In this document: positions 14,273 to 14,745 of the stretch, in pieces
Layout of the letters: every line of letters starts with the position of its first letter
How positions within the stretch are numbered: the first letter of the stretch is position 1
Assembly: GCA_012837335.1 (NCBI GenBank)
Contig: DURM01000066.1
Span: 1-36,214 of the forward strand
Direction of reading: 5' to 3'
Source of the DNA: Bacillota bacterium
GTDB taxonomy: Bacteria > Bacillota > Limnochordia > Darwinibacteriales > DTU012
Length of the DNA stretch: 36,214 bases
Notes under the pieces: generated by a model
What the model saw: the letters and a program-made list of their open reading frames with translations, nothing else
Told to the model about the DNA's origin: nothing
Databases searched by the model: none
Program-made: the position numbers and the translations under genes

Positions 14273-14311
14273 TAAAAAAAACTCATGGTATGAGTTCTTT
14301 AACCATGAGTT
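14273..14311 (-). terminator. minus-strand intrinsic terminator after the 47-aa ORF
   Basis: A 10-bp perfect stem (14280-14289 with 14302-14311) has a 12-nt loop and eight T residues when read on the minus strand (14281-14274). Confidence 0.85.
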
Positions 14312-14318
14312 GATCAAA

Positions 14319-14350
14319 CGGCAGCTCTAATGTGGGCGTTAGAGCTGCCG
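14319..14350 (-). other. 12-bp perfect hairpin in the 3' region of the 47-aa ORF
   Basis: CGGCAGCTCTAA (14319-14330) pairs perfectly with 14339-14350 around an 8-nt loop. It lies 11 nt after the stop of the minus-strand ORF and just before the terminator. It has no T tract on either strand, so it is more likely a 3'-end stability element or binding site than a second terminator. Confidence 0.5.
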
Positions 14351-14361
14351 CTCACGAAATG

Positions 14362-14505
14362 TTATGCTGCTTTCCCCCGCCCAAAACGTCTGCGCCTTTT
14401 ATTACCAATCTTGATGTATAACTGTTTAGATTCCACTTCTCTAAAAAACCGGATTCTAAATAACTTCAGCGGAGTCCAAATTTCTTTAAAAACCAAGTAA
14501 GGCAC
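14362..14505 (-). CDS. 47-aa basic small protein, unrecognised
   Basis: A GTG-initiated ORF begins MPYLVFKEIWTPLKLF and ends in a strongly basic tail, KRRRRFGRGKAA. GGGGGG lies 5 nt before the GTG, and the ORF is followed by a perfect hairpin and a strong terminator, so it has the framing of a real gene. The N-terminal half is aromatic and amphipathic; the C-terminal half could bind nucleic acid, the ribosome or anionic membrane. Promoter sequences directly upstream are unconvincing. The nearest strong promoter (14716-14745) is followed by a terminator at 14577-14613, so expression may need readthrough. No homologue comes to mind. Confidence 0.55.
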   Translation of the reverse strand: MPYLVFKEIWTPLKLFRIRFFREVESKQLYIKIGNKRRRRFGRGKAA

Positions 14506-14576
14506 TTAATCCCCCCTATTTTGCATAACATTTAGTTCAGTTACGTACCATAATAATGAGATGTAATATTAAATTA

Positions 14577-14613
14577 AAAAACGAAAAAACCGACCAGCAT
14601 AGCTTGGTCGGTT
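14577..14613 (-). terminator. minus-strand intrinsic terminator of the small RNA
   Basis: AACCGACCA (minus strand 14613-14605) pairs with TGGTCGGTT (14596-14588) around an 8-nt loop, followed on the minus strand by TTTT, CG and TTTTTT. Confidence 0.85.
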
Positions 14614-14709
14614 GCACTACTAACTCGAGACAGTTTCCAGTGCCCACTCCTGAAACTGTCCGTCATCGTTTCCAGCTATTAATTAGATTCCAGACAATTC
14701 CTGGAAATC
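14577..14709 (-). ncRNA. probable small RNA or attenuated leader, about 130 nt
   Basis: A strong minus-strand promoter is followed by about 130 nt with no convincing ORF and then an intrinsic terminator. Predicted stems are TTCCAG/CTGGAA (14688-14693 with 14701-14706) near the 5' end, a 9-bp GACAGTTTC/GAAACTGTC helix (14629-14637 with 14652-14660) whose loop carries AGGAGTGGG, and the terminator helix. The ends do not pair as in 6S RNA, and I recognise no Rfam class. It could be a free small RNA or an attenuator controlling the 47-aa ORF 72 nt downstream. The transcript start is inferred from the -10. Confidence 0.55.
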
Positions 14710-14715
14710 CTTCTA

Positions 14716-14745
14716 ATTATAATAATAAATTCTCATACTTGTCAT
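14716..14745 (-). promoter_or_regulatory. sigma-A-type promoter of the small RNA
   Basis: On the minus strand the -35 is ATGACA (14745-14740), the spacer is 18 nt and the -10 is a perfect TATAAT (14721-14716), predicting a start near 14709. The surrounding DNA is AT-rich. Confidence 0.65.

Follow-up and report, generated by a model that had tools for sequence, protein, structure and literature searches.

The window, the whole 36,214-nucleotide stretch analysed here, carries on its minus strand what is very probably a transcriptional ON switch for cyclic di-GMP (c-di-GMP): a c-di-GMP-II riboswitch that would govern the synthesis of a conserved microprotein of 47 amino acids, itself probably a participant in surface-attached life. 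The elements would constitute a stand-alone unit in the order promoter, riboswitch, terminator, microprotein gene and terminator, as follows.

14716 to 14745, minus strand: predicted sigma-A-type promoter, ATGACA-18-TATAAT (consensus scan, 11 of 12 bases matching)
14597 to 14681, minus strand: c-di-GMP-II riboswitch aptamer, RF01786 (cmscan, 59.4 bits, full length)
14588 to 14613, minus strand: intrinsic terminator 1, the expression platform, followed by a U-tract (terminator scan; fold of -15 kcal/mol)
14511 to 14517, minus strand: Shine-Dalgarno sequence AGGGGGG, 5 nt upstream of the GTG start (sequence)
14362 to 14505, minus strand: open reading frame (ORF) for the basic microprotein of 47 amino acids, with a GTG start and the motif FKEIWTPL (homologs; low dN)
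14316 to 14353, minus strand: long perfect hairpin 3' of the stop codon, without a U-tract (fold)
14274 to 14310, minus strand: intrinsic terminator 2, ACTCATGGT...ACCATGAGT followed by T8, closing a monocistronic unit (sequence, fold)

Much of this layout had been anticipated by a sequence-only reading of the DNA, which called the promoter, a terminator after the leader and a second terminator beyond the ORF, all of which were recovered at the places given above. The promoter was the best of three matches in the 761 bp scanned, where shuffled sequences lead one to expect 1.4, and transcription would start at about position 14709. A perfect hairpin of 12 bp had also been described; it is present, with arms GGCAGCTCTAA...TTAGAGCTGCC at 14349-14320, but its folded stem (-24.8 kcal/mol) is somewhat longer than 12 bp. 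This hairpin exists as a single copy in the genome of the window, which rules out a dispersed repeat, and it possibly serves to protect the 3' end of the mRNA. In a relative from the same genus (G006) a hairpin terminator stands at the place equivalent to terminator 2.

The stem-rich leader is a c-di-GMP-II riboswitch aptamer. A covariance search against Rfam, which the sequence-only reading had proposed for a leader whose identity it had missed, returned one RNA only from the whole window: a match to RF01786 at 14681-14597 of the minus strand that scored 59.4 bits against a gathering score of 53.5, covered model positions 1-84 of 84 and had an E-value of 6.5e-11 over the whole window, more than chance would give. 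In the alignment to the Rfam model all of the strongly conserved positions are kept, namely CGAUGA, UGGGCACU and GAG..AGU.GUGCAACCG.CCAA, and the segment UGGGCAC, which the model places in a loop, is complementary to the conserved downstream GUGC. We infer that the window's copy binds c-di-GMP. The suggestion that the loop sequence AGGAGTGGG presents a Shine-Dalgarno-like element did not hold, as this sequence shares nucleotides with the aptamer's invariant UGGGCAC and is no exposed ribosome-binding signal. The riboswitch adds one member to an already known class; its interest lies in its target.

How the riboswitch would act is indicated by its position in the leader, where its expression platform overlaps the aptamer. 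Aptamer and terminator 1 have AACCGACC in common: the conserved 3' end of the former doubles as the 5' arm of the latter (AACCGACCA), and the 3' strand of P1 (AGCTAT) falls within the loop of the terminator. In three relatives (G006, G010 and G011) the segment AACCG(A/G)(C/T)C likewise serves both structures. Because aptamer and terminator draw on the same nucleotides, the two are mutually exclusive, and c-di-GMP is therefore predicted to prevent termination, making the window's riboswitch a transcriptional ON switch. We argue the direction from this architecture, since secondary-structure energies ignore both the pseudoknot and the ligand. At low levels of c-di-GMP, nascent AACCGACC would pair with TGGTCGGTT to form terminator 1, and transcription would stop after about 130 nt. 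At high levels, the ligand would keep AACCGACC and the P1 strand within the aptamer, terminator 1 would be blocked and RNA polymerase would continue into the 47-codon gene, such that a basic microprotein of a conserved and undescribed family, probably acting in the surface-attachment switch, would be induced by c-di-GMP. The opposite polarity, with c-di-GMP favoring termination upstream of the ORF, has precedent in that some c-di-GMP riboswitches are OFF switches, as class I riboswitches of Clostridioides difficile have been described to be (PMC11477304). Such a polarity is improbable here, however: the ligand-bound aptamer and the terminator exclude each other, no separate anti-terminator is seen between them and the class II riboswitches of C. 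difficile that have been tested are ON switches (PMC11477304, PMC3649979).

The sequence-only reading had left a choice between a free small RNA and an attenuator that admits readthrough into the small gene, and it is the attenuator that has stood. Were the leader a trans-acting RNA and the ORF a separate gene with a promoter of its own, one might point to the strength of terminator 1, by which most transcripts would be about 130 nt long at low c-di-GMP, and to the riboswitch leaders of C. difficile, which have been observed as short RNAs (PMC3649979). But RF01786 is a cis-regulatory class, a promoter scan of the minus strand from terminator 1 to the ORF found none, and riboswitch and ORF occur together in the window's genome (G000), G006, G010 and G011 despite differing flanking genes. 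We have accordingly rejected a trans-acting small RNA, which is very improbable in the face of this conserved linkage to the ORF and of membership in a cis-regulatory family.

The linkage was seen in a comparison of relatives. Four intact copies of the ORF were found in the window's taxonomic family (those of the window, G006, G010 and G011), every one of them immediately preceded by an RF01786 aptamer with its terminator. In G010 and G011 the flanking genes differ and the pair has stayed together; in G006 both elements are kept next to the DUF1540 flank. In G009, where both flanks (DUF5069 and DUF1540) are conserved, the ORF contains two in-frame stop codons and is preceded only by remnants of the riboswitch, seen by eye; evidently, riboswitch and ORF have decayed together. 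The absence of both elements from relatives with conserved flanks, which the sequence-only reading had named as evidence against itself, was thus not encountered, with both retained in G006 and remnants in G009. The genome G008 has neither the ORF nor the flanking genes, and G007 could not be used, because both of its contigs end within the interval.

These arrangements also bear on whether the true target might be the DUF1540 gene downstream (14233-13982), with the ORF as a mere leader peptide. That gene does follow in all three genomes of the genus with an intact interval, the window's, G006 and G009. Terminator 2 intervenes, however, DUF1540 is intact in G009 where the riboswitch and the ORF have decayed, and the riboswitch and ORF persist in G010, where DUF1540 lies 3 kb away, and in G011, which has none. 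On the grounds of terminator 2 and of the arrangements in these three genomes we have rejected the leader-peptide interpretation as very improbable, and we take the microprotein gene to be the target. The wider neighborhood affords no firm assignment of function, since no Pfam family recurs more than three times among 74 neighboring proteins (sugar-nucleotide epimerases, three; DUF218, three; GGDEF, two); genes for EPS and the S-layer lie nearby in a neighborhood that is not conserved.

Judged by its sequence, the ORF of 47 codons is a true gene. The homolog search that the sequence-only reading had recommended, carried out with the 47-amino-acid query, found relatives in another 11 genomes from the order (E-values of 5e-17 to 6e-7, more than chance would give), so that homologs are present in 12 of its 37 genomes, the window's included, one of the 12 (G009) being a pseudogene. 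The small ORF with its ribosome site has been borne out. Selection on the coding sequence is indicated by dN/dS values of 0.23 and 0.10 in two pairs; in other pairs dS was saturated, with dN of 0.09-0.28. A scan of 84,980 species genomes for the peptide pattern F[RK]EIWTPL yielded 44 loci, mainly in Bacillaceae and Paenibacillus, and no member from Clostridioides. An alignment of 38 sequences revealed invariant residues F6, I9, W10, T11 and P12 and near-invariant residues E8, L13, K32 and R38, all of which the window's ORF possesses. Searches of Pfam, NCBIfam, PHROG and the PDB gave no match to the microprotein, nor did searches of phages and plasmids, and no paper was found in a literature search for the motif EIWTPL. 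The FKEIWTPL microproteins (about 40-55 amino acids, across Bacillota) are an undescribed family. One relative was seen on a 164-kb contig of a viral collection (L124:2001-2120).

The window's microprotein has a pI of 11.6, a net charge of +11 and the tail KRRRRFGRGK, and an AlphaFold2 model of moderate confidence (pLDDT 79.6, pTM 0.50) depicts a small beta-rich fold, for which a fold search of the PDB found no neighbor (best E-value 3.7). The charge and the arginine-rich tail, together with the small beta-rich fold, could be taken to mean that the microprotein binds c-di-GMP or RNA and itself tunes c-di-GMP output, rather than being a partner to a surface machine, a variant of our main explanation that concerns the protein only. 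We regard this variant as unlikely: net charge ranges from +3 to +11 among the four family members checked, it is FKEIWTPL and not the tail that is most conserved, and neither fold nor sequence matches a c-di-GMP-binding domain.

Further evidence for a connection to c-di-GMP came from Bacillaceae, in which members of the same protein family lie behind class I riboswitches. A c-di-GMP-I aptamer (RF01051, 65-72 bits) ends 23-32 nt upstream of the microprotein ORF at three loci, L051 (Cytobacillus), L055 and L061 (Bacillus suaedae). At each, P1 is flanked by a CCUCC (or ACCUC) sequence able to pair with GGGG(G) in the ribosome site, and when P1 was forced to form, the mean accessibility of the Shine-Dalgarno sequence rose from 0.04, 0.08 and 0.02 to 0.34, 0.40 and 0.60, respectively. 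These class I leaders thus also point to ON control. A fourth sequence (L056:3882-3980), which by eye resembles a degenerate c-di-GMP-I aptamer (GCAAAG and GCCAGCCAGCT are kept) upstream of a microprotein, was below Rfam detection and has been left out of the class I count. No recognizable riboswitch of a c-di-GMP type was found upstream of most homologs from Paenibacillus, other Bacillaceae and family f3 of the order; control by c-di-GMP does not, then, extend to the whole protein family and depends on lineage. Two loci in which no riboswitch was recognized (L047:3931-3965 and L048:469-505) share an imperfect hairpin of the GGGACC..GGTCC type upstream of the microprotein, in which two base pairs differ from one locus to the other with both partners altered; it may be a further regulatory RNA or else an operator.

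We infer that c-di-GMP control was gained twice independently. Unless the protein has a part in c-di-GMP signaling, it is difficult to see why two unrelated classes of RNA with one ligand should precede one orphan family, and the microprotein probably belongs to c-di-GMP (sessile-life) signaling. The genome of the window contains 12 matches to GGDEF domains, and hence the ligand can be made. RF01786 matches are found in 28 of the 37 genomes of the order, and other class II targets, assigned from the ORFs that lie downstream, include PilB-type ATPases with an MshEN domain, curlin-repeat proteins and further secreted proteins. These co-targets represent surface functions and, taken with the regulation of the microprotein, hint at a role for it in surface-attached life.

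Several of these other targets merit description in their own right. The PilB/GspE-type ATPases with MshEN lie behind a c-di-GMP-II riboswitch, in most cases with a terminator, in many genomes of the order (L002, L004, L005, L008-L011, L022-L024 and others; Pfam was run on L002 and L005 only). The curlin-repeat proteins (L020:1611-3086 and L025:1615-2994; PF07012, with 11-12 repeats, and L027, which is alike by sequence) are encoded by genes in which a c-di-GMP-II aptamer without a terminator is located directly upstream of an AGGAGG ribosome site, and it is likely that this curlin-repeat amyloid of Bacillota is under translational control by c-di-GMP. Finally, the only c-di-GMP-I riboswitch in the window's genome (G000:C1:609-698; L123) lies upstream of a gene for a protein with an HD domain (HD_5) that may be a phosphodiesterase of the HD-GYP type; possibly the riboswitch exerts feedback on c-di-GMP turnover.

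The closest known counterparts of the window's riboswitch include Cdi2_3 and Cdi2_4 of C. difficile (RF01786), which have the same aptamer sequence and structure and for which ON control is reported, whereas here it is predicted (PMC11477304, PMC3649979). The class II targets reported for C. difficile comprise a pilin operon along with surface proteins and a signal-transduction system, in contrast to the uncharacterized 47-amino-acid protein that is alone in its unit in the window; as compared with the C. difficile systems, no group I ribozyme was found at the window's riboswitch. The c-di-GMP-I riboswitches (RF01051) of the three Bacillaceae loci have the same ligand and the same target family but differ from the window's in having an unrelated RNA fold, a predicted translational mode of control (access to the Shine-Dalgarno sequence) and a place in another lineage. 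For a conserved orphan microprotein, regulation here reveals the signal ahead of the function; two unrelated classes of c-di-GMP riboswitch on one such family are a strong clue to c-di-GMP signaling in Bacillota, and the class I pairing offers culturable species (Cytobacillus, Bacillus) in which the microprotein can be tested.

Small proteins under c-di-GMP riboswitches have been described elsewhere. In C. difficile, small proteins of 58 amino acids are under class I riboswitches (PMC11477304), an arrangement that, by its description, resembles ours in placing a c-di-GMP riboswitch before a short protein that lacks known domains. Bacillus methanolicus has a c-di-GMP riboswitch upstream of sinI (PMC4342826), again a riboswitch before the gene for a small regulatory protein, and SinI is a known antagonist of SinR (PMC4342826 and general knowledge); the likeness to the FKEIWTPL family is one of arrangement. 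Tentatively, and with slightly less than even confidence, we propose that the FKEIWTPL family is a dedicated c-di-GMP output, recruited independently by two riboswitch classes, whose members would, like SinI, be small effectors, setting the activity of attachment, matrix or pilus functions.
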